Below, piece after piece: positions 1 to 9,796 of a stretch of 64,000 nt of DNA. The stretch comes from Sulfurospirillum diekertiae (lineage in GTDB: Bacteria > Campylobacterota > Campylobacteria > Campylobacterales > Sulfurospirillaceae): NCBI RefSeq assembly GCF_002309535.1, contig NZ_CP023275.1:2542001-2606000 (forward strand), in the 5' to 3' direction. A program made the translations under genes and the position numbers. The first letter of the stretch is position 1, and the number at the start of each line of letters is the position of its first letter. Under the pieces are notes generated by a model, which was given only the letters and a program-made list of their open reading frames with translations, had not been told where the DNA came from and searched no databases.

Positions 1-3000
1 GCTAAAATCTTCCATAGATTGCCTTGAATTGGAGCTTCAACGGCTTCTTTATCGTCATCAATCACCACAGAAGCACTCTCATCGTGGTGCTCTTCGTGTG
101 CGCTTTGTGAGGTAAAATTGGCAAGACCCGTGCGCTCCCACATGGTGCGTTCTTCTTCAAATGCGTTTTGTTGCGTGGCTTTAAAAGCTTTAATCGTGCT
201 CTCATTTTCTTCTAAAAATGCTTGGTATTTTTTAAGGCTAAACGTCGTCTCTTCAATGCGCAGCTTAGCGCGTCCTCGTGGGAAATCCTCACGCAAACGC
301 AGTAACTCTTCCGCACTCACTTCGTAAAAACGGATTTGGTCAAAAAAGCGCAATAACCAAGGTTTGCCTTCTGTAAAATCTTCGGTTTGACGGTGGCGAT
401 TCCACATTTGAACCGTGCGCCCTACAAACTGATAACCTCCCGGCCCTTCCATGCCGTACACGCACATGTATGCCCCACCAATGCCCACCGCATTTTCAGG
501 TGTCCATGTTCGGGCGGGATTGTATTTAGTCGTGACCAAGCGGTGCCTTGGATCAAGCGGTGTCGCCACAGGAGCGCCCAGATAAACATCGCCCAGCCCC
601 ATAACCAAATAGCTCGCTTCAAACAAAATGCGCTTCACCTCATCAATGCTCTCTAAACCGTTGATACGACGGATAAATTCTATATTGCTCGGACACCACG
701 GAGCGTCAGGTCGAACGATTTTCATATACTTATCAATCGCAATGCGTGTTTGTTCATCATCCCATGAAAGCGGTAAATGCACAATGCGCGCAGGCACTTC
801 AATATCTTCAATCGACGGTAAAGAGAGCTCTAAGCGTTGTACCGTTTGCATCAATGCCTCACGGTTGCACAGCCGTGGATTAAAATGAATTTGCAAGGAA
901 CGAATCCCCGGGGTTAATTCAATCACACCCTTAATATTGGCATCCATAACGGCTTGCATCAGCACATGTATACGAAAACGCAAGCTAATATCGAGTTGCA
1001 TTTCACCGTATTCGATCAGTAAGTTACTATCTCCTGATTGGCGAAAGGTCACGCTCGGTAAAAGCACACTACTCTCATCGTGATACAAAATAGGCGAGCC
1101 TATTTCTTTTTCGTGGAGCATTGAGCGTTCATCGTATGTGGAAAGAGAGGCTATCGCCTCCTCTTGCAACCGAAGCATTTGCATCGCTTCATCATGGCAG
1201 ATAGGCACAAACGTGATGGTGTCTCTCGCGCGCAACTGTCCTATCTTCCAAAGCTCTGCACTCACAATCGTCACAGGACAGACAAAACCGCCTAAACTTG
1301 GTCCATCAGGCCCTAAAATGACGGGCATATCACCCGTAAAATCCACTGCACCTATGGCATAGGCGGTATCGTGAATATTAGACGGATGCAACCCTGCTTC
1401 TCCCCCATCACTGCGCGCCCATGAAGGTTTAGGGCCTATGAGTCTCACTCCCGTGCGATTGGAGTTATAATGCACTTCCCAACATGCTTCGAAAAAGGCT
1501 TTGATATCTTCATCCGTAAAAAAATCAGGTGCGCCATGCGGTCCATACAACACCCCAATGCGCCACTCATTTCCAAACGCTCTATAAGGTGTCATGGCTT
1601 CAAAATGGGCATCCTTGGCAACCATTGCATCGACATGCAAAACGTCTCCTGCAAGCAAAGCTCTTCCCGCATGCCCTCCAAAAAGACCAAGTGAAAAGGT
1701 AGAACGGCTGCCAAGATACAAAGGTACATCAATGCCCCCTCGAACGGCAAGGTAGGTTCGAAAGCCTTTAGTGTGCACTTTTTTAAGTTTTAAAACACTC
1801 CCAGCTTTTACATGTAACGCTTGGTTCATCCCCACTTTAATGCCATCTAAAAAAGCATCAATCACCGCACCACACAACGCAATCACCCCTTCGTAATTAA
1901 ACCGAAGCGTAGGCCCCGCAATGGCAATCTCAAATCCTGCGGCATCTTCACTATTGCCCACAAGGGCATTGGCATAGCGAAAACTGAGATTATCAAATGG
2001 ACCACTGGGCGGCACGCCAATGTCCCAATATCCGATTCTTCCCGGATAATCTTGTATCGTTGTATGGGTTCCCGGACGTAATACATCAATACTCTGAGGC
2101 GCAAAACGAAAGTGATTCAAAAACTTAGTGGTTTGCTTCCCTGCTTGAAAAACCTCACCTTCGACAATCGCACCAAGGTAGTCTATATTGGTTTCAATCC
2201 CATCAATGCGTGTCTCTTGAATTGCCTGCGCCATTTTGACTAACGCCTCTTCGCGCGTATTTTCTTTCACAATCAGCTTTGCAATCATCGGGTCGTAAAA
2301 GGATGAAACATTCAAACCCGTTTCAATAAAACTATCCACGCGAATGCTGGGGGCAAAATGCACATGGGTGAGCACACCGGAGCTGGGTTGAAAATTTTTC
2401 ATCGGATCTTCGGCATACACGCGCACCTGAATAGAGTGCCCTTTTGGTGCATGCGTATAGTCGTACAATTCGGGATTATGCCCGTAGGCTTGATTCACCA
2501 TCCACTGCACCAAGTCGATGCCGCTGACCTCTTCGGTGACACCGTGTTCGACTTGCAAACGGGTGTTAACCTCTAGGAAGTAAAACTGTTCACTTTGCGT
2601 ATCGTAGACAAATTCAACCGTCCCAGCGGAGAGGTACTTGACCGACTCACACAAAGCACGCGCTGCACTCAAAAGCGCTTCGCGTGTCTTTACATGTAAA
2701 AAAGGAGCGGGCGTTTCTTCGATGACTTTTTGATTACGGCGTTGCACCGAACAGTCTCGCTCCCCAAGCGTTGCCACGTAGCCTTTGCCATCACCAAAGA
2801 CTTGCACTTCGATATGACGCGCATGTTCAACGTATTTTTCTAAGAACATTCCGCCATTGGAGAAGTTGTTTTCACTGAGGCGTTTGACCGAAGCATACGC
2901 ATCACAAAGGGCTTGTTCGTCATAACACAACTGCATCCCGATGCCGCCACCGCCTGCGGTACTTTTGAGCATTACAGGATACCCAATACGTTTGGCTTCT

Positions 3001-3434
3001 GTGATCGCTTCTGCCAAATCAAAAAGCAGTGAAGAGCCGGGAAGAAGAGGAACATTGTTAGCTTCTGCAAGAGAACGTGCAGTATGTTTCAGTCCAAAAG
3101 CTTCCATATGTTCAGCCCGCGGACCAATAAACACAATGCCCTTTTCTTCACACGCTTTGGCAAACGCGGCATTTTCACTTAAAAATCCATACCCCGGATG
3201 AATTGCCTCCGCGCCACTTTTACAAACCACATCAAAAATTTTTTGGGTGTTAAGGTAACTCTCGCTGGCTAAGCCTTCACCAATACAATACGCCTCATCG
3301 GCTAAGCTTACATGTAAAGAATCTTCATCGGCTTTGGTGTACAGGGCAACAGAAGCAATGCCCATCTTTTTGAGCGTGCGTATGATACGACACGCAATTT
3401 CGCCTCGGTTGGCGATCAGTATTTTTGAAAACAT
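1..3434 (-). CDS. Guanidine carboxylase (annotated as urea carboxylase), 3' end cut by window edge
   Basis: Biotin-dependent carboxylase that adds CO2 to guanidine, or to urea in classical members, using ATP. The 1144 visible residues begin [16 protein letters not shown], a typical biotin carboxylase N-terminus. They contain the ATP-grasp glycine loop [11 protein letters not shown], then from about residue 446 the first allophanate-hydrolase-like domain ([16 protein letters not shown]) and from about residue 790 the second. The C-terminal biotinyl domain would lie beyond position 1. The start at 3434 follows an AGGA ribosome site six bases upstream, just downstream of a guanidine-II riboswitch. 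Last visible gene of the operon. The guanidine assignment rests on the two riboswitches and the DUF1989 neighbours (known biology of carboxyguanidine deiminase operons), not on active-site residues. Urea carboxylase remains possible. Confidence 0.9.
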
Positions 3435-3525: not shown

Positions 3526-4149
3526 TTACTCTTTATCCCAGACGATCATCTGAATCGGTGTTGGATTAAATCCATTGCAGGGATTGTTGAGTTGCGGGCA
3601 GTTGGAAACCAAGACTAACGTATCCATCACCGCTGTCATCTCTACATAATCACCCGGTTTGGAGATACCATCCACAATCGCTAAGTGACCATTTTCTTCC
3701 ACAGGGACGTTCATAAAAAAGTTAATGTTATTGGTCAGATCACGAGGATTCATCTCCAACTCACCGACTTCAAACAAAAAGTTATCACGACAACTGTGCA
3801 TGTACTTTTTATCATGCCCAAAGCGGACGGTATTGCTCTCAGCACTGCAATGACCACCAAGGGTATCATGATTGCCACAGGTATCTGCCACCACTTCCAT
3901 CAGCACATTATCATCACTGGAGATCAGTTTTGTTCCTGTGGTGATAAAGATACTGCCTTGCTCTCGTATCGTATCGGATGCACTGTAACGCTCTTCATGA
4001 TCGTTCGCGTTGTAAAATAGGGTATCGACCGCTTGACATCCTTCCAAATCCACTATGCGCAAAGTTTGCCCTTTATAAATTACTTTTGACCAAGGAATAC
4101 CTGAGGGCACGTGTTCGTTGTAAATGGCGGTTTGAATTTCTCTTTTCAT
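3526..4149 (-). CDS. cgdB: DUF1989 protein, carboxyguanidine deiminase subunit B-like (urea carboxylase-associated protein 2)
   Basis: A 207-residue DUF1989 family protein. With its partner it is expected to hydrolyse carboxyguanidine to allophanate and ammonia. This is established for the family found beside such carboxylases; the B versus A assignment is by length and order and is inferred. Conserved segments include GQTLRIVDLEGCQAVDTLFY and HDTLGGHCSAES with candidate metal-binding His and Cys residues. The start is taken as ATG at 4149, five bases after AAGGAG; a GTG just upstream is too close to that site. It lies nine bases after the partner gene. A guanidine-II element follows. Confidence 0.85.
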   Translation of the reverse strand: MKREIQTAIYNEHVPSGIPWSKVIYKGQTLRIVDLEGCQAVDTLFYNANDHEERYSASDTIREQGSIFITTGTKLISSDDNVLMEVVADTCGNHDTLGGHCSAESNTVRFGHDKKYMHSCRDNFLFEVGELEMNPRDLTNNINFFMNVPVEENGHLAIVDGISKPGDYVEMTAVMDTLVLVSNCPQLNNPCNGFNPTPIQMIVWDKE

Positions 4150-4158
4150 CACATCTCC

Positions 4159-4896
4159 TTACGCAAAATAGCGGGCATTGTTCTCAAAACCACGTTTGGC
4201 TTCGGGACTAAAATTCATACAAAAATCATCTTCACTCAAAGGAGCACCTTGATAAATCGTGATTTGCACATCACTGGGGTTATAGACTCCTTTTTCCATC
4301 ACATGCGGTGTGTTGGAGAGCACTAAAAGCACATTCATCTCTGCTCTAAGTTCAATATAACTACACGGCTCTGGGCGCAACGGTGAGAGAGAAAGTTTGC
4401 TCCCCTCTTTCACATCGACTTTACGAAACAGATTCAGACACGCAACGATGTCTCGTTTTCCCATACCGTATTTTCCAAGCTCTACCAAGAAATTTTCACG
4501 GTCACTTTTGTAGTAGCGGTTGCGAATATCATTAAACGTCCCTTCGCCAAAATTTGCTTTGACAAGGCGTGGATTGCTCATGCCTGCTACTGTATCCATC
4601 AGTCCGTTGGTCGTATCTTCGGTAATGGAAAAGAGAATATGTCCAAGTTCTGAAAACAGAACTTTGCCCTTTCCTAAAAATGCGTTCCATTGAATTTTAA
4701 CCGTATCGGCGAAGTTATAACGCTCGGCGGTGTTATCGGCATTGTAAAAAAGAGCACTGACAGCCCCTTTGCCGTCTTCTGTGCTAATGCGTACTTTTTG
4801 ACCTCGCTTAATGATTTTAGACCATTTGCCACCACCGGGCAATACTTCATCCAGCACAATGCTCTCTGGCTTAAGATTGAGATGTTTGCTTATCAT
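4159..4896 (-). CDS. cgdA: DUF1989 protein, carboxyguanidine deiminase subunit A-like (urea carboxylase-associated protein 1)
   Basis: A 245-residue DUF1989 protein, paralogous to the next gene and slightly longer, as is usual for the A-type partner. Shared features are the N-terminal GQKVRIST segment, an ALFYNADNTAERYNFADT block like the LFYNANDHEERYSASDT block of the partner, and a central NFLVELGKYGM stretch. Its ATG overlaps the stop of the upstream ATPase gene as ATGA (4896-4893), implying translational coupling. It likely forms a heteromer with the 3526-4149 product to deiminate carboxyguanidine. No signal peptide, so cytosolic. Confidence 0.85.
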   Translation of the reverse strand: MISKHLNLKPESIVLDEVLPGGGKWSKIIKRGQKVRISTEDGKGAVSALFYNADNTAERYNFADTVKIQWNAFLGKGKVLFSELGHILFSITEDTTNGLMDTVAGMSNPRLVKANFGEGTFNDIRNRYYKSDRENFLVELGKYGMGKRDIVACLNLFRKVDVKEGSKLSLSPLRPEPCSYIELRAEMNVLLVLSNTPHVMEKGVYNPSDVQITIYQGAPLSEDDFCMNFSPEAKRGFENNARYFA

Positions 4897-5672
4897 AATG
4901 CTTCCCTCGTTATCGTTTGATTAATTTTTTTAAACACACTCTCCTTCTCCTTTTTATCGTGAAGGGGAATATCATAGGTTATTTTCGCACCAAAGGCATT
5001 CGGTGCTTGTGGGTCAAGGCGTACTTTGTCGAACACCAGAAGCCTTGTTCCTAGGTAAAATCCTTCGTGAAGATCATGTGTGACCATCACGACCGTTAAA
5101 TTATTTTTTTTCCATAAATCCAAAATAAGTGCGTGCATGTCGGCACGAATACCCGGATCAAGTGCACCAAACGGCTCATCGAGCAGTAACAGTTTTGGTT
5201 TTTTCACCAATGATTGCGCAATGGAAAGACGTTGTTGCATCCCCCCTGAGAGTGAATCAGGATACTGATGCAACACATCGCCCAAGCCTACCGCTTCAAG
5301 CATCGCTATCGCCTCTTCTTTGGCTCTTTGTTTCGCTTTCCCAAACAGTTTTCCTAGAAAAGGTGACTCGCCTAACTCGATGCCAAGCATCACATTTTCT
5401 AACACACTGAGGTGTGAAAAGAGCGAATAACGCTGAAAAACGATGCCTCGCTCGGCACTTGGCTCGGCAGGAAATGGTTTGCCTTCAAATAAAAACAGAC
5501 CTTTTGTCGGACTCTCTTCCCCTAAAAGCATTTTTAAAAACGTACTCTTGCCACAGCCTGAAGGACCAACCAGTGTGCAAAATTCTCCCGCTTCAATGTT
5601 TAAGGAGAGGTTTTCCAACACAACCGTTTCACCATAGCGTTTCCACAGGTTTTTAATGGTGATTAAACTCAT
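4893..5672 (-). CDS. ABC transporter ATPase, NitT/TauT type, probable guanidine importer
   Basis: Energises import by the permease encoded upstream. It shows Walker A GPSGCGKST, signature LSGGMQQR and Walker B KLLLLDEPF, and ends at about 259 residues, normal for the family. The chosen start at 5672 overlaps the permease stop as ATGA and has AAGGA upstream; an ATG 24 bases further upstream lies inside the permease gene and lacks a good ribosome site. NitT/TauT-like importers are frequent partners of guanidine carboxylase operons. Substrate specificity is inferred from the riboswitch, not from the ATPase itself. Confidence 0.9.
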   Translation of the reverse strand: MSLITIKNLWKRYGETVVLENLSLNIEAGEFCTLVGPSGCGKSTFLKMLLGEESPTKGLFLFEGKPFPAEPSAERGIVFQRYSLFSHLSVLENVMLGIELGESPFLGKLFGKAKQRAKEEAIAMLEAVGLGDVLHQYPDSLSGGMQQRLSIAQSLVKKPKLLLLDEPFGALDPGIRADMHALILDLWKKNNLTVVMVTHDLHEGFYLGTRLLVFDKVRLDPQAPNAFGAKITYDIPLHDKKEKESVFKKINQTITREAL

Positions 5673-6487
5673 GCTTTGTCCTTGTTTTCGTACCATGGAA
5701 AAAGTTTACATGTAAACTTTTTGAGTAGAAAATCTGCTAAAAAAGCCAACAACGTAATCCAAATAACATAGGGTAAAATCATATCCATCGCCAAATAACG
5801 TCGCACCAAAAAGATGCGATACCCAAGCCCCTCCGTTGCAGCAATCGCTTCGGAGGAGATCAAAAATATCCATGCGGTTCCCAAAGTCAATCGCACCGAA
5901 TCTAAAAGACGCGGAAACATTTGAGGAAGAATAATACGAATCACAAGCGTCCATGTTGAAGCGCCCAACGTTTGCGCTTTAATGAGCTGCTCTTTGGAAA
6001 ACTCCTCCACACGGTGTTGCAAATCGCGCACAATCAGCGGCGTGACACCGATAACAATGAGTGCCACTTTTGCCACTTCCCCCATCCCAAATATAATAAA
6101 AAGGATAGGCAAAATGGCAATCGGTGGTACCATTGAAAAAGCGGCGATAAACGGTGAAAAACCCGCCCTGACCAACGGAATAAGCCCTAGAGGAATGCTA
6201 ATGATAAGCCCCAAAAGAGCGCTAATTACCACGCCAATGCCTAAACGTTTGAGCGAGGAGAGCGTATCATTGATAAAAATAACCTCTCCTGAGCGCTTGC
6301 TAGGAGTTAAGGCCGATTTTTCCATCGTGTCAACCATATGCGAAAAAGAAGGTAAGAGTTTATCATCTTCATTTTCCTGTAGCCTTGCATTCGATGCAAA
6401 AACATACATCAACACGATCAGTAAAAAAGGCATCAGTCCTAGCACAAGAGCTTTGGAATGGGAAGGCTTTTGGTTAATCAGTCGCAT
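5669..6487 (-). CDS. ABC transporter permease, NitT/TauT type, probable guanidine importer
   Basis: A 272-residue inner-membrane permease with an N-terminal membrane segment (residues about 13-32), further hydrophobic segments, and the EAA-type cytoplasmic loop (KAQTLGASTWTLVIRIILP) that contacts the ATPase. An AGAGG ribosome site precedes the ATG. It carries one copy of the TTACATGTAA palindrome at 5706-5715, encoding part of the C-terminal FTCK. It sits between the binding protein and the ATPase genes and overlaps the latter by four bases. Confidence 0.9.
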   Translation of the reverse strand: MRLINQKPSHSKALVLGLMPFLLIVLMYVFASNARLQENEDDKLLPSFSHMVDTMEKSALTPSKRSGEVIFINDTLSSLKRLGIGVVISALLGLIISIPLGLIPLVRAGFSPFIAAFSMVPPIAILPILFIIFGMGEVAKVALIVIGVTPLIVRDLQHRVEEFSKEQLIKAQTLGASTWTLVIRIILPQMFPRLLDSVRLTLGTAWIFLISSEAIAATEGLGYRIFLVRRYLAMDMILPYVIWITLLAFLADFLLKKFTCKLFPWYENKDKA

Positions 6488-6524: not shown

Positions 6525-7592
6525 TTACAGTTTACCTTCACTCGCTAATTTCATATATTCATCGCTAAAACGAAGTTTGATATTGCTTGCACTGCCATAC
6601 GCTTTTCCATTTGGAAAGGACATACCGACAAACGTTGCATCTTTAGCGCCATCACCTAAAATGCCATGCTCAAAGGAAAACTCACTGACTTTTTGCATTG
6701 TTGCAGGCAGTGCCGCACTGGTTGAAAAGGCTAAAGCATCTTTCGCATCGTAAAACATTTTGGTGGTTTTAAGTTGGCTGTTAAAGCCCGCGACATCCGT
6801 TCCAGAAGCTTTTGCCATCATGCTAATGGCTTGAGCATCACCTTTTTTCATTTGTGCCATCACTTCATACCATGCACCGGTAAGTGCTTTTGCAAGTTTT
6901 GGATTGTCTTGCATTGTTTTGGTGTTTAACACGAGCATATCGATAATTTCGCCGGGGATTTTACTGGAATCAAAAGCCAAGGTTGCACCTTTCATCGCTT
7001 TGATTTCGCTGAGTTGTGGATTCCATGTGACTAAAGAGGTAACATCTTTGGAAGAAAAGGCAGCCACGATATCGGCATCAGAGGTGTTGACCACTTTCAC
7101 ATCTTTTTCGCTCATCCCCACTGATTCAAGTCCACGTGCTAAAAGATAGTGAGAGACAGAGAGTTCCACTAAATTGACATTTTGACCTTTGATATCGGAG
7201 AGTTTTTTCTTATCTTTGAGGATAATACCATCGTTTCCATTGGAGAAGTCACCAATAATAACCGCGGTAGAATCCACACCACCCGCTGCTGGGATAGTCA
7301 AGGCATCCATATTGGTCATTACACAGCCATCAAATTTACCTGCGGTGTATTGATTGATGGATTCGACATAGTCATTGACTTGCACCATCTTGATCTCAAT
7401 ACCGTATTTTTTAGCCCATTTGTCAATAATGCCAGATTGCTCAGCATAATCCCAAGGCATCCAGCCAACGTAAATGGTCCAAGCCACTTGAAATTTATCT
7501 TTAACTTCTGCTGCAAGAGTAGAAGCACCAATGGACATAGCCAGCGTTGCGGCAACTAATAACTTAAGGGTGGGTGAGAAGAAAGAGTTCAT
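6525..7592 (-). CDS. ABC transporter substrate-binding protein, probable guanidine importer
   Basis: Periplasmic binding protein of about 355 residues with a Sec signal peptide (hydrophobic LLVAATLAMSIGAS followed by an AEV cleavage region). The mature part has the NitT/TauT periplasmic fold signature WTIYVGWMPWDYAEQSG. Start chosen at the ATG at 7592, which has AGGAG seven bases upstream; an ATG 30 bases further upstream would overlap that site and spoil the signal peptide. First gene of the operon, directly downstream of a guanidine-I aptamer, so its ligand is predicted to be guanidine or a guanidinium compound. Confidence 0.88.
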   Translation of the reverse strand: MNSFFSPTLKLLVAATLAMSIGASTLAAEVKDKFQVAWTIYVGWMPWDYAEQSGIIDKWAKKYGIEIKMVQVNDYVESINQYTAGKFDGCVMTNMDALTIPAAGGVDSTAVIIGDFSNGNDGIILKDKKKLSDIKGQNVNLVELSVSHYLLARGLESVGMSEKDVKVVNTSDADIVAAFSSKDVTSLVTWNPQLSEIKAMKGATLAFDSSKIPGEIIDMLVLNTKTMQDNPKLAKALTGAWYEVMAQMKKGDAQAISMMAKASGTDVAGFNSQLKTTKMFYDAKDALAFSTSAALPATMQKVSEFSFEHGILGDGAKDATFVGMSFPNGKAYGSASNIKLRFSDEYMKLASEGKL

Positions 7593-7600
7593 AAGAGGCT

Positions 7601-7735
7601 CCTGAGTAGATGAGATTAACACGCCAAGAGGTTGAGAAACCTCCCGGGCTTTTATCCCTCCGTGAACCTCTACTCAAGAGGTTGATAGCTCTCGGACCAG
7701 ACACAAATTGCTTTGTCGGAACCCTAGCTACCTAT
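7601..7735 (-). promoter_or_regulatory. Guanidine-I (ykkC) riboswitch and expression platform
   Basis: On the minus strand the leader contains the conserved blocks in order: AGCTAGGGTTCCG (7729-7717), GGTCCGAGAGCT (7698-7687), and ACGGAGGGATAAAAGCCCGG (7664-7645). These are the hallmark sequences of the ykkC subtype 1 aptamer that binds guanidinium. The variable hairpin AACCTC/GAGGTT (7683-7665) lies between them. No U-tract terminator follows. Instead a 9-base segment at 7678-7670 can pair with 7609-7601, overlapping the ribosome site of the binding-protein gene, which suggests translational control. Identification is from sequence motifs recognised by eye. Confidence 0.93.
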
Positions 7736-7845
7736 TAGTGTGCGAGGCCTCACAGCCTCATGACATGTTTTCTGAAGTAAGTATAACGAAGAGTCGCATA
7801 AAAAAGAAGAGCCTGAATGATTAAAAAATAGGCAATTATCTGAAT

Positions 7846-9132
7846 CTATTTTACATGTAACGTATTGGGTGAGAAATGAATCGTAAAATAGTTTTGTCCC
7901 TCTACATGTAAATAGCTCAAGCGAAATCCATGTTTTTCAACAATAGCGTTGGCGATGTAAAGTCCTAGTCCTAAACCACTATTCGAGCCTTCAACAGCTC
8001 GGTTAAACGCGCGTGAAAAATCGAGTCTTTCATTTGGTATTTTTTCACCAAAACTCCAGATATTGATGCTCTCTTGATCAATATCGACGCCAACATCATC
8101 ACTTGAGTGTTTAAGAGCATTATCCAGTATATTTTTAATGGCGGTTGCAAACAGTTCAAAGTCGACATTGACCAAAGGCGCCATCTCTTGTGGTGAGATA
8201 TGAATCCGCTTGGTATCCCCTAAAAGGAGTAAATCCATGGCATGATCAAGAACATCAACCAAACGGTACTCTTGTGTCTGTAAAATCCACTCATCTGAAC
8301 TGAGTTTTTCGACTTTTACCATCTCTCCCAAAAGGGTTTCCAACCGTTCAAAAATACGCTCCATTTGAGATTGCTGTTTGGTATCAATGATAGAGCTTGA
8401 AAGAATCTTACCCTTCATAATAGGCGTTTTAAGCTCATGCAAGATATTGCGTAAGAAAAGGGTACGCGCCTCTTTTAAGAGATGAATTTTCTCCATGGCT
8501 AGATTAAATTCTGATGCGATTTCACCTAGTTCATCTTGACTCTCTACATCAATCGCTTGAAATTTTTTCGTATTGCCAAAGGTGCGAATGGCACTTTTCA
8601 GATGACTCAGACGCAATACTTTTCGAAGTACAATCCCGAAAAAGAGAAGTAAAAGAGTATTGGTAATGCTTCCTAAAATAATCAATCTGTAAAACGATGT
8701 CTCTTCCATGTTTTCTAAAACAGGAGGCTCTTCTCTTCTCATCTTTGGAGGAGGTGGAGGGAAAGGAAATGCTCCTTCTCTTATAAATGGCTCATTAGGT
8801 GGTGGCGGATGAGGAGGCTTTCTAGGAACAAGGTAGAGCTTTTTCTCGTATAACATCATATCGGCAAAAGCGTCTTCTAAGATCTTTTCACCTTCTTGAA
8901 GCAGAGTATTTTTATCGTGATCACTCATACGAATACCTAGCTTTGCAAGCGTTGCATTACGATCTGGGACATTATCATGCATCATTTTCATCGCGACTAA
9001 AAAACGTCGAAAGGTGAAAAATTCTTGGTCACTTATTTGGCGTTTATATTCAATAAAAAAGGCAATGTTTATGACAATGAGGGTCAGTGCAAAAAATACA
9101 GAGATAAGCGTAACGATTGATAGTTTACGCAT
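7846..9132 (-). CDS. Sensor histidine kinase with proline-rich periplasmic domain
   Basis: About 428 residues. Membrane segment 1 (residues about 5-25) is followed by a roughly 110-residue periplasmic region with two proline runs (PPHPPPP and FPPPPPK), then membrane segment 2, a HAMP-like linker, the H-box ILHELKTPIMKGK (phospho-His near residue 232), and an ATPase domain with N-box NILDNALKHS and G-box GLGLGLYIANA. Start at 9132 overlaps the regulator gene by 8 bases; the longer reading frame upstream has no support. It resembles the ArsS/CprS-type kinases of Helicobacter and Campylobacter. The signal is unknown. Confidence 0.88.
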   Translation of the reverse strand: MRKLSIVTLISVFFALTLIVINIAFFIEYKRQISDQEFFTFRRFLVAMKMMHDNVPDRNATLAKLGIRMSDHDKNTLLQEGEKILEDAFADMMLYEKKLYLVPRKPPHPPPPNEPFIREGAFPFPPPPPKMRREEPPVLENMEETSFYRLIILGSITNTLLLLFFGIVLRKVLRLSHLKSAIRTFGNTKKFQAIDVESQDELGEIASEFNLAMEKIHLLKEARTLFLRNILHELKTPIMKGKILSSSIIDTKQQSQMERIFERLETLLGEMVKVEKLSSDEWILQTQEYRLVDVLDHAMDLLLLGDTKRIHISPQEMAPLVNVDFELFATAIKNILDNALKHSSDDVGVDIDQESINIWSFGEKIPNERLDFSRAFNRAVEGSNSGLGLGLYIANAIVEKHGFRLSYLHVEGQNYFTIHFSPNTLHVK

Positions 9133-9796
9133 TGACAAATTTATACCCAACGCCTCGCACAGAGAGAATAAAACGAGGTTTTCGAGGGTCATCCCCAATT
9201 TTTTGACGGATTCTACCCATAATGACATCGATGCTTTTCAAACTACTTTCGTATTTGATCGAACCGATATTGAGTAAAATCTCTTCTCTTGAAATCACAA
9301 AACCCTCTTTTTTTAACATATAAGCCACAATGTCATACTCTGCCATAGTGAGTTTTAACTCATTTTGCCCTCGTTTGATGATGTGCCTCTCTTCATCAAG
9401 ACTAAAGGTGTGATGCGTGGATTCACTCAGCGTTGAGCCTCTTCGTAAAATAGCACGAAGTCTGTAAGCAAGTTCTCTTGGATCATACGGTTTAGGTAAA
9501 AAGTCATCCGCCCCACGCTCAAAACCCATCACTTTATCACCCATGTCAGACCTTGCGGAAGAGATAATAATAGGGAGTGTGGGAATGGCTTCATGGACAA
9601 TGCGACAAATCTCTAATCCATCAATTTGAGGTAAAGAGAGGTCAAGAACAAGTGCATCAAAGATATCGTGTTGAAGTGCCGTTAATCCATCTAAAGGAGT
9701 AAAGGCAAGGATGGTTTCAATCTCCTCCTTGAGAAGAGATTCTTGAAGCAGTTGTGCAAGTTCAACGTCATCTTCAATCATTAAAATTTTAATCAT
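9125..9796 (-). CDS. OmpR-family response regulator
   Basis: A 223-residue regulator. The receiver domain (residues 1-120) has the acidic pair EDD at residues 8-10, phospho-acceptor Asp in DALVLDLSLPQIDG and a conserved Lys in LPKPYDP. The C-terminal winged helix (residues about 130-220) ends IGDDPRKPRFILSVRGVGYK, the standard OmpR/PhoB wing. It is co-transcribed with the downstream kinase (8-base overlap). A four-EF-hand protein gene lies 74 bases upstream on the same strand and may be part of the same unit or a target. Confidence 0.92.
   Translation of the reverse strand: MIKILMIEDDVELAQLLQESLLKEEIETILAFTPLDGLTALQHDIFDALVLDLSLPQIDGLEICRIVHEAIPTLPIIISSARSDMGDKVMGFERGADDFLPKPYDPRELAYRLRAILRRGSTLSESTHHTFSLDEERHIIKRGQNELKLTMAEYDIVAYMLKKEGFVISREEILLNIGSIKYESSLKSIDVIMGRIRQKIGDDPRKPRFILSVRGVGYKFVNA

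Follow-up and report, generated by a model that had tools for sequence, protein, structure and literature searches.

By what means might a guanidine-I riboswitch govern its operon when its leader holds no terminator? The question is raised by the window analysed here, a 64,000-nt stretch of the Sulfurospirillum diekertiae genome (NZ_CP023275.1, positions 2,542,001 to 2,606,000), in which a guanidine-I aptamer with helices P1, P2 and P3 (7639-7738; all window features below lie on the minus strand) precedes a gene for a substrate-binding protein. The match to the RF00442 covariance model is full length (1-107) and, at 86.8 bits (E = 3.9e-14), above the gathering score of 63; the conserved guanidine-I core, GGAUAAAAGCCCGGGAG, was located at 7657-7641, and this is the sole copy found in the genome. 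Guanidine-I riboswitches are described as usually transcriptional on-switches (PMC12186494) and are elsewhere presumed transcriptional (PMC12508155). The window leader does not show the usual terminator-type expression platform: zero terminator-like sites were found in 7560-7900, with 0.3 expected from shuffles, and a strong hairpin in that region (hairpin B, below) has no U-run, in agreement with a sequence-only reading of the locus that saw no terminator U-tract. That reading had proposed instead that the loop of P2 pairs with the region of the ribosome-binding site (RBS), turning translation off without guanidine. We propose that the locus is probably a guanidine-I riboswitch whose expression platform acts on translation and lies inside its own aptamer: pairing of P2 with the RBS (P2:RBS) would be the off state, and the aptamer together with an outer helix, P0, the on state.

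Predicted pairing of P2 with the ribosome-binding site

The P2 hairpin (ACCUCU-UGAGU-AGAGGU, 7666-7682) has a stem formed by 7682-7677 and 7671-7666. As had been read from the sequence, CTTGAGTAG at 7678-7670 is complementary at nine positions to CTACTCAGG at 7609-7601, with a single G-U (U7677-G7602), and the second 9-mer overlaps the Shine-Dalgarno (SD) sequence AGGAG (7599-7603). Of the first 9-mer, five bases (7676-7672) belong to the P2 loop and four to the P2 stem. The pairing extends to a 12-bp helix between an anti-RBS strand, CUCUUGAGUAGA (7669-7680), drawn from the 5' arm, the loop and the beginning of the 3' arm of P2, and an RBS strand, UCUACUCAGGAG (7599-7610), with one G-U and spanning the entire AGGAG (7680-7669 : 7610-7599); these strands are the subject of the pair counts and tree test given below. 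Of 49 SD-preceded open reading frame starts found mechanically in the window, this one alone reaches the energy of the pairing, and shuffled bases 5' of the SD attain it in 24 of 2000 trials. Since a single sequence gives a chance level of only about 1%, the weight of the evidence rests on relatives.

Within the class 24 of 397 genomes contained an RF00442 match, as did 8 of 24 in the genus and 25/228, 11/104, 1/120 and 10/44 in four families (these sets overlap), and matches to a DNA pattern gave 22 stretches in named genomes, some of them non-Campylobacterota. The loci taken from each genome set were the best-scoring ones (at most 30), not every match. There were 58 distinct leaders, of which six from outside Campylobacterota were left unaligned and 52 distinct Campylobacterota leaders, duplicates removed, were aligned; in these 52 the GGA of the SD is invariant, as is the ATG of the binding-protein gene (7590-7592 in the window), the leaders having been anchored on a predicted start. 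Four loci were missed by the leader pattern (L038, L046, L051, L056): by eye, L038 carries the same 12-mers as the window leader, and no clear P2:RBS pairing is seen in L046 or in the Nitrosomonas leaders L051 and L082. The best ungapped P2:RBS helix is 10-16 bp long in 36 of the 52 Campylobacterota leaders, with letters that vary from leader to leader (GAGUAG/CUACUC, GAAUAG/CUAUUC, AAAUAG/CUAUUU, UAUAUAG/CUAUGUA, UUAUUAAAA/UUUUAAUAA); in L026 and L066 the helix sits before the SD and leaves it uncovered.

The sequence-only reading had staked the pairing on covariation between the two 9-mers in relatives, and such covariation is present in swap, column and tree tests alike. Seven core P2:RBS pairs are standard in 88.5% of cases across the 52 leaders, against 32-53% when the strands are slid, and all 12 pairs in 90.7%, against 42-56%. 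Changes on both sides of a pair occupy 47 cells (17.5 in shuffles) and the covariation score is 0.196 (0.112 in shuffles), neither value being reached in 500 shuffles; both-side changes are seen at five of the 12 pairs. When the RBSs of 20 leader types were swapped (these types, like the 27 representatives used for P0 below, were hand-picked), own RBSs summed to -313.5 and swapped ones to -193.8 (standard deviation 14.6), with p at its floor of 1e-5, a floor likewise reached by the 14 Campylobacterota types on their own. With the SD masked, the values for the 20 types are -171.8 and -105.5, and both sets again give p at 1e-5; from this masked test coincidental complementarity was judged unlikely. 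The own RBS ranked first in 10 of the 20 types and second in six, and the per-leader shuffle gave p <= 0.05 in 40 of the 52 leaders, which are not independent of one another. On a tree, eight same-branch compensatory events were counted (the null gave 0.96 on average and never more than 5 in 2000 simulations), and the fraction paired was 0.907 against 0.801 in the null (p = 0.0055).

Beyond Campylobacterota, four further genome sets held RF00442 in 16 of 63 genomes (order of a Methylophaga record), 89 of 322 (order of L056, a Pseudomonadales record), 42 of 330 (order of a Nitrosomonas record) and 23 of 303 (a class-wide draw). Loci L081-L192 gave 99 distinct parsed leaders, and 11 were missed by the leader pattern; parsed leaders were dropped where the start was not within 150 nt or where they were duplicates, so that 10 of 11 were used in the Methylophaga order, 26 of 31 in the L056 order, and 25 of 30 and 25 of 26 in the remaining sets. 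The own RBS beats swapped ones in two gammaproteobacterial orders, the Methylophaga order, that of L065 (p = 5.4e-4, 10 leaders; examples are CUUCACAGU/ACUGUGGAG and CUUCACAGC/GCUGUGAGG), and the L056 order (p = 2e-5, 26 leaders), and more weakly in a third, the Nitrosomonas order (p = 0.008, 25 leaders), where no clear match between P2 and the SD is seen by eye. It is the best partner in 5 of 10 and 7 of 26 leaders of the first two orders, and in the remaining two sets, with 25 leaders each, in 2 and 3; P2:SD matches were also seen by eye in L090, L094, L100 and L104, which the pattern had missed and which are uncounted. Within these best-scoring samples, the putative P2:RBS device thus appears from sequence to be widespread, not universal. 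On a Pantoea plasmid, copy L103 carries GACCUCUG/CAGAGGUC after a U-rich stretch, so that translational and terminator control may coexist.

Two predicted, mutually exclusive folds

P2:RBS would be half of a larger switch, whose other elements are a conserved outer helix, P0, and a hairpin that disrupts P3. In its minimum-energy fold the leader retains P1, P2 and P3 inside P0, a 24-bp helix of several segments (7769-7761 : 7626-7618, 7759-7756 : 7631-7628, 7754-7753 : 7634-7633, 7751-7744 : 7643-7636 and 7742 : 7645). The 5' strand of P0, AACAUGUCAUGAGG (7756-7769), forms 13 pairs with its 3' strand, CCUCUUGGCGUGUU (7618-7631), and an inner continuation, GAGGCCUC (7744-7751), pairs with 7643-7636; P0 is present too in a further fold of the leader (z-score -2.59). 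Because the alignment is uneven over the P2 loop and the 5' leader, P0 was tested per sequence rather than per column: over the 27 representatives own strands gave -571.3 and swapped strands -379.7, with p at the floor of 1e-5, the own partner ranked best in nine, and the shuffle p was <= 0.05 in 25, the exceptions being L025 and L026.

Hairpin A (7744-7759) is a local structure that competes with P0 for its 5' strand. Hairpin B, CCGGGAGGUU-UCUC-AACCUCUUGG (7624-7647; 10 bp, 7647-7638 : 7633-7624), uses up the 3' strand of P3 along with part of that of P0, and nests within the P2:RBS helix. P0 crosses that helix, so a nested fold accommodates just one of the two, and the RNA partitions into either the aptamer with P0 or P2:RBS with hairpin B (and hairpin A). 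Their minimum energies are nearly equal, at -64.6 kcal/mol for the aptamer with P0 and -62.8 kcal/mol for P2:RBS with hairpin B, and the SD is predicted to be paired in one of these mutually exclusive folds, under the computed 12-bp helix over AGGAG. In relative L040, hairpin B is followed by a U-run, CGCTTTTTCT, and is flagged as terminator-like (1587-1606); by eye, a U-rich stretch likewise follows hairpin B in L023, L024, L029 and L041-L045. The long P0 of the L040 lineage would act as an antiterminator, and its terminator-looking hairpin B would be consistent with an origin from a terminator platform.

When folding was followed on the growing transcript, the aptamer with P0 prevailed for 3' ends at 7618 to 7605, and P2:RBS (0.74) and hairpin B (0.74) took over once the transcript reached 7599. 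With an energy bonus on P3 as a stand-in for the ligand, -2 kcal/mol brought P0, P2 and P3 back to at least 0.82 in folds to 7588 and 7560, and the probability that the SD is unpaired in the fold to 7588 rose from 0.23 to 0.38. On average, 2.1 kcal/mol is needed to open the SD when P2 and P3 are enforced, against 4.3 kcal/mol when they are not, and opening was cheaper with them in 39 of 52 leaders. The comparison of folds with and without the aptamer, which had been suggested as a check, thus bears out a cheaper opening of the SD when the aptamer is formed, but not a bare SD in the on fold, where the opening cost is lowered yet the SD is not fully single-stranded.

Weighing the proposed switch and its rivals

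A number of results weigh against a switch of this kind. The tree used above was derived from the leaders themselves, with the P2:RBS columns excluded. Two of five column measures stay at shuffle level: the number of pairs with both-side change is 5 against 3.7 in shuffles (68 of 500 as high), and further pair types number 12 against 12.1 (413 of 500 as high). In a blind covariation scan of all columns (20,706 column pairs) the best P2:RBS pair comes fourth with E about 2.8 and the next has E about 29, and one P1 pair tops every simulation with two further P1 pairs near (E 0.3-0.4); as the scan does not single out P2:RBS, we rely on the targeted tests. The RNAalifold consensus recovers P1, P3 and hairpin B, and not P2, P2:RBS or P0. 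Among the leaders, L025 has only 5 bp and L027 and L028 no P2:RBS helix, L025 and L027 do badly in the RBS swap test, L035 has 8 bp and L039 7 bp, and one lineage (L023, L024, L029, L040-L045) has 5-7 bp (for example UAAGCGG/CCGCUUA); in L004 and L007 the ungapped helix stops at 7 bp, in another register, L004 attaining -14.5 kcal/mol when a bulge is allowed. The 25 leaders of the class-wide draw show no own-RBS effect (p = 0.35). From folding, a third fold that combines hairpin B with an intact P2 (-63.5 kcal/mol) is as good as the P2:RBS fold, ligand-free P2:RBS drops to 0.66 at 7590, 0.35 at 7575 and 0.34 at 7560, and at 7560 hairpin B (0.78) dominates, P2 often remaining closed (0.55). With the ligand stand-in at -3 kcal/mol and beyond, the unpaired probability of the SD in that fold to 7560 falls from 0.20 to 0.12, a fold extended to 7530 fails to reproduce the switch, and across 50 leaders the ensemble with P2 and P3 is less stable than that with P2:RBS by a mean of +1.7 kcal/mol, with much scatter (standard deviation 4.3).

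The frequent closure of P2 in the full-length fold is what would be needed if only the P2 loop paired with the bases before the SD, P2 staying closed, possibly as a tertiary lock of the ligand-bound state. Pseudoknots that hide the SD do occur in other riboswitches, and both-side changes are most numerous in the core of loop and pre-SD bases (16 cells at columns 141/222 and 17 at 143/220). Such a pseudoknot nevertheless seems rather improbable to us: in 36 of 52 leaders the ungapped pairing continues through the P2 stem, 10-16 bp in all; both-side changes (7 and 5 cells) occur as well at the two pairs furthest out, which lie in the 3' arm of P2 and require P2 to open; and a ligand-stabilised pseudoknot would have the substrate shut off the genes for its own uptake and degradation. 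Kissing-loop control of the cobalamin type would keep the pairing within a loop and leave its stem intact; in the window the complementarity extends into both P2 arms, though P2 may stay closed, and in one lineage it is only 5-7 bp long. It might also be that P2:RBS is a by-product of CCU-rich P2 5' arms, which would pair with any SD; the common P2 motif (G)ACCU does match SDs of the GAGG type, and permuted RBSs also have clearly negative energies. That the swap test remains at its floor with the SD masked, and that compensatory changes fall outside the SD, makes this highly unlikely.

A minor but real possibility is that transcription attenuation is the actual control, with hairpin B as the terminator (or the mark of a Rho site), P0 as the antiterminator and P2:RBS as secondary. 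P0 is conserved with changing letters, hairpin B shares strands with both P3 and P0 and is terminator-like in L040, and transcriptional action is usual in the class (PMC12186494). Against this, the window leader is without a terminator-like site, its hairpin B being followed by CGUGUUAAUC, and the P2:RBS helix, which attenuation does not need, covaries independently. The two layers, attenuation and P2:RBS, may coexist.

Under the translational switch that we favour, P2 would open without guanidine, 7680-7669 would form a 12-bp helix with 7610-7599 in which the SD is wholly buried, and the nested hairpin B would capture the P3 3' strand and destroy the aptamer. With guanidine, presumably bound by the aptamer, P1, P2 and P3 would be retained and hairpin B lost; the 3' strand of hairpin B would then join the 5' leader as P0, excluding P2:RBS and releasing the SD for what would be an effect on translation. 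The P2 loop (7676-7672) would be a likely toehold for invasion of P2 by the RBS. We take off without guanidine as the direction because the off fold destroys P2 and P3, because guanidine-I is expected to follow an 'on' logic (PMC12186494), and because of the genes served. As to the earlier suggestion that pairing of loop and RBS switches translation off without guanidine, covariation among the sequences supports the pairing; as the helix spans 12 bp in the window and 10 bp or more in 36 of 52 leaders, it would consume the P2 stem too, and the arrangement looks more like an exchange of P2 strands than a pseudoknot of the loop alone.

Operon, additional copies and known systems

The riboswitch is followed by genes for the substrate-binding protein of a 'putative urea' ATP-binding cassette (ABC) transporter (6525-7592; TIGR03427, 562.7 bits, cut-off 333.9), an ABC permease like TauC/SaoP/SsuC (5669-6487, scores under curated cut-offs), an ABC ATP-binding protein (4893-5675; 25 families shown, each under its curated cut-off), UAAP1 (4159-4896; TIGR03425, 279.4 bits, cut-off 205.95), UAAP2 (3526-4152; TIGR03424, 347.2 bits, cut-off 284.7) and a predicted urea/guanidine carboxylase-type protein with biotin carboxylase and carboxyltransferase domains (3-3434, continuing past the window edge). 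The genes 3' of the riboswitch are thus guanidine-related (TIGR03427, UAAP1, UAAP2 and a biotin-dependent carboxylase whose guanidine preference is putative), and by gene content the operon served resembles a guanidine-uptake/carboxylase type. The UAAP proteins are, from a reference title, presumably the deaminase. Gene sets for a guanidine importer, carboxylase and deaminase are known, and the window operon is similar to them (PMC12186494).

A promoter scan gave one weak upstream match only. By eye, many aligned leaders have a TATAAT-like element (about 7790-7772 in the window) immediately before the P0 5' strand, so P0 may begin close to the transcription start. Directly upstream in the window, on the same strand (7846-9796), lie a histidine-kinase-type ATPase-domain protein and, by eye, a response regulator.

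Several genomes have a second guanidine-I riboswitch about 1.6 kb from the first (L025, L026, L027, L028, L046), which precedes a secreted-looking protein of about 400-420 amino acids; the one protein of this group that was examined (L028:455-1720) had no Pfam match. P2:RBS pairing is weak or absent in these second riboswitches, L026 excepted. In G361:C4:120609-132180 (L029, L023) a pair of guanidine-I riboswitches, one on each strand, point towards each other across about 11.4 kb, an arrangement seen too in G389 and G457. In six further genomes (G1358, G1197, G1312, G1388, G1516, G1497) two stand back to back, one per strand and separated by a few hundred bases, which suggests divergent operons. 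On a Serratia plasmid (L104) the riboswitch and a small hypothetical gene occur twice, about 1.07 kb apart and with the same protein accession, as if a segment had been duplicated.

No earlier mention of pairing between P2 and the SD in guanidine-I was found in the titles and abstracts found, the primary discovery and structure papers lying outside that scope, nor does the available text of PMC12186494, PMC6031431, PMC12508155 and PMC7266159 mention it. We lean slightly towards the view that an undescribed translational platform is common to Campylobacterota and several gammaproteobacterial lineages, one where P2 itself is the anti-SD, P2 co-evolves with the RBS and folding of the sensor is release of the RBS, with P0 as a counter-helix in Campylobacterota. 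If so, a well-known and usually transcriptional riboswitch class would have a translational mode of compact design, an aptamer arm doubling as the anti-RBS strand, and a reason would be offered for the variability of P2 sequences in the guanidine-I family.

The window leader resembles guanidine-I riboswitches (ykkC subtype 1) that have an intrinsic terminator in its RF00442 aptamer, its guanidine gene context and the 'on' switch expected of it, and differs from them in that it is without a terminator-like site, that an arm of P2 can cover the SD, and that P0 encloses the aptamer. In the PRPP riboswitch (ykkC subtype 2), likewise, a P0 formed from the aptamer ends joins the expression platform, and the guanidine aptamer is described as lacking this helix (PMC6031431); unlike it, the P0 of the window is made of leader strands further out, around the guanidine-I match. 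Guanidine-II and -III riboswitches, whose aptamers differ from guanidine-I, are predicted to exert translational 'on' control by release of the SD (PMC12186494), as is proposed here. In the cobalamin (corrinoid) riboswitch an aptamer loop also pairs with the expression platform, through the L5-L13 kissing loop, to control an RBS hairpin (PMC10653944), but that pairing accompanies the ligand, whereas the pairing in the window would form without ligand, directly on the SD, and would consume a stem of the aptamer.
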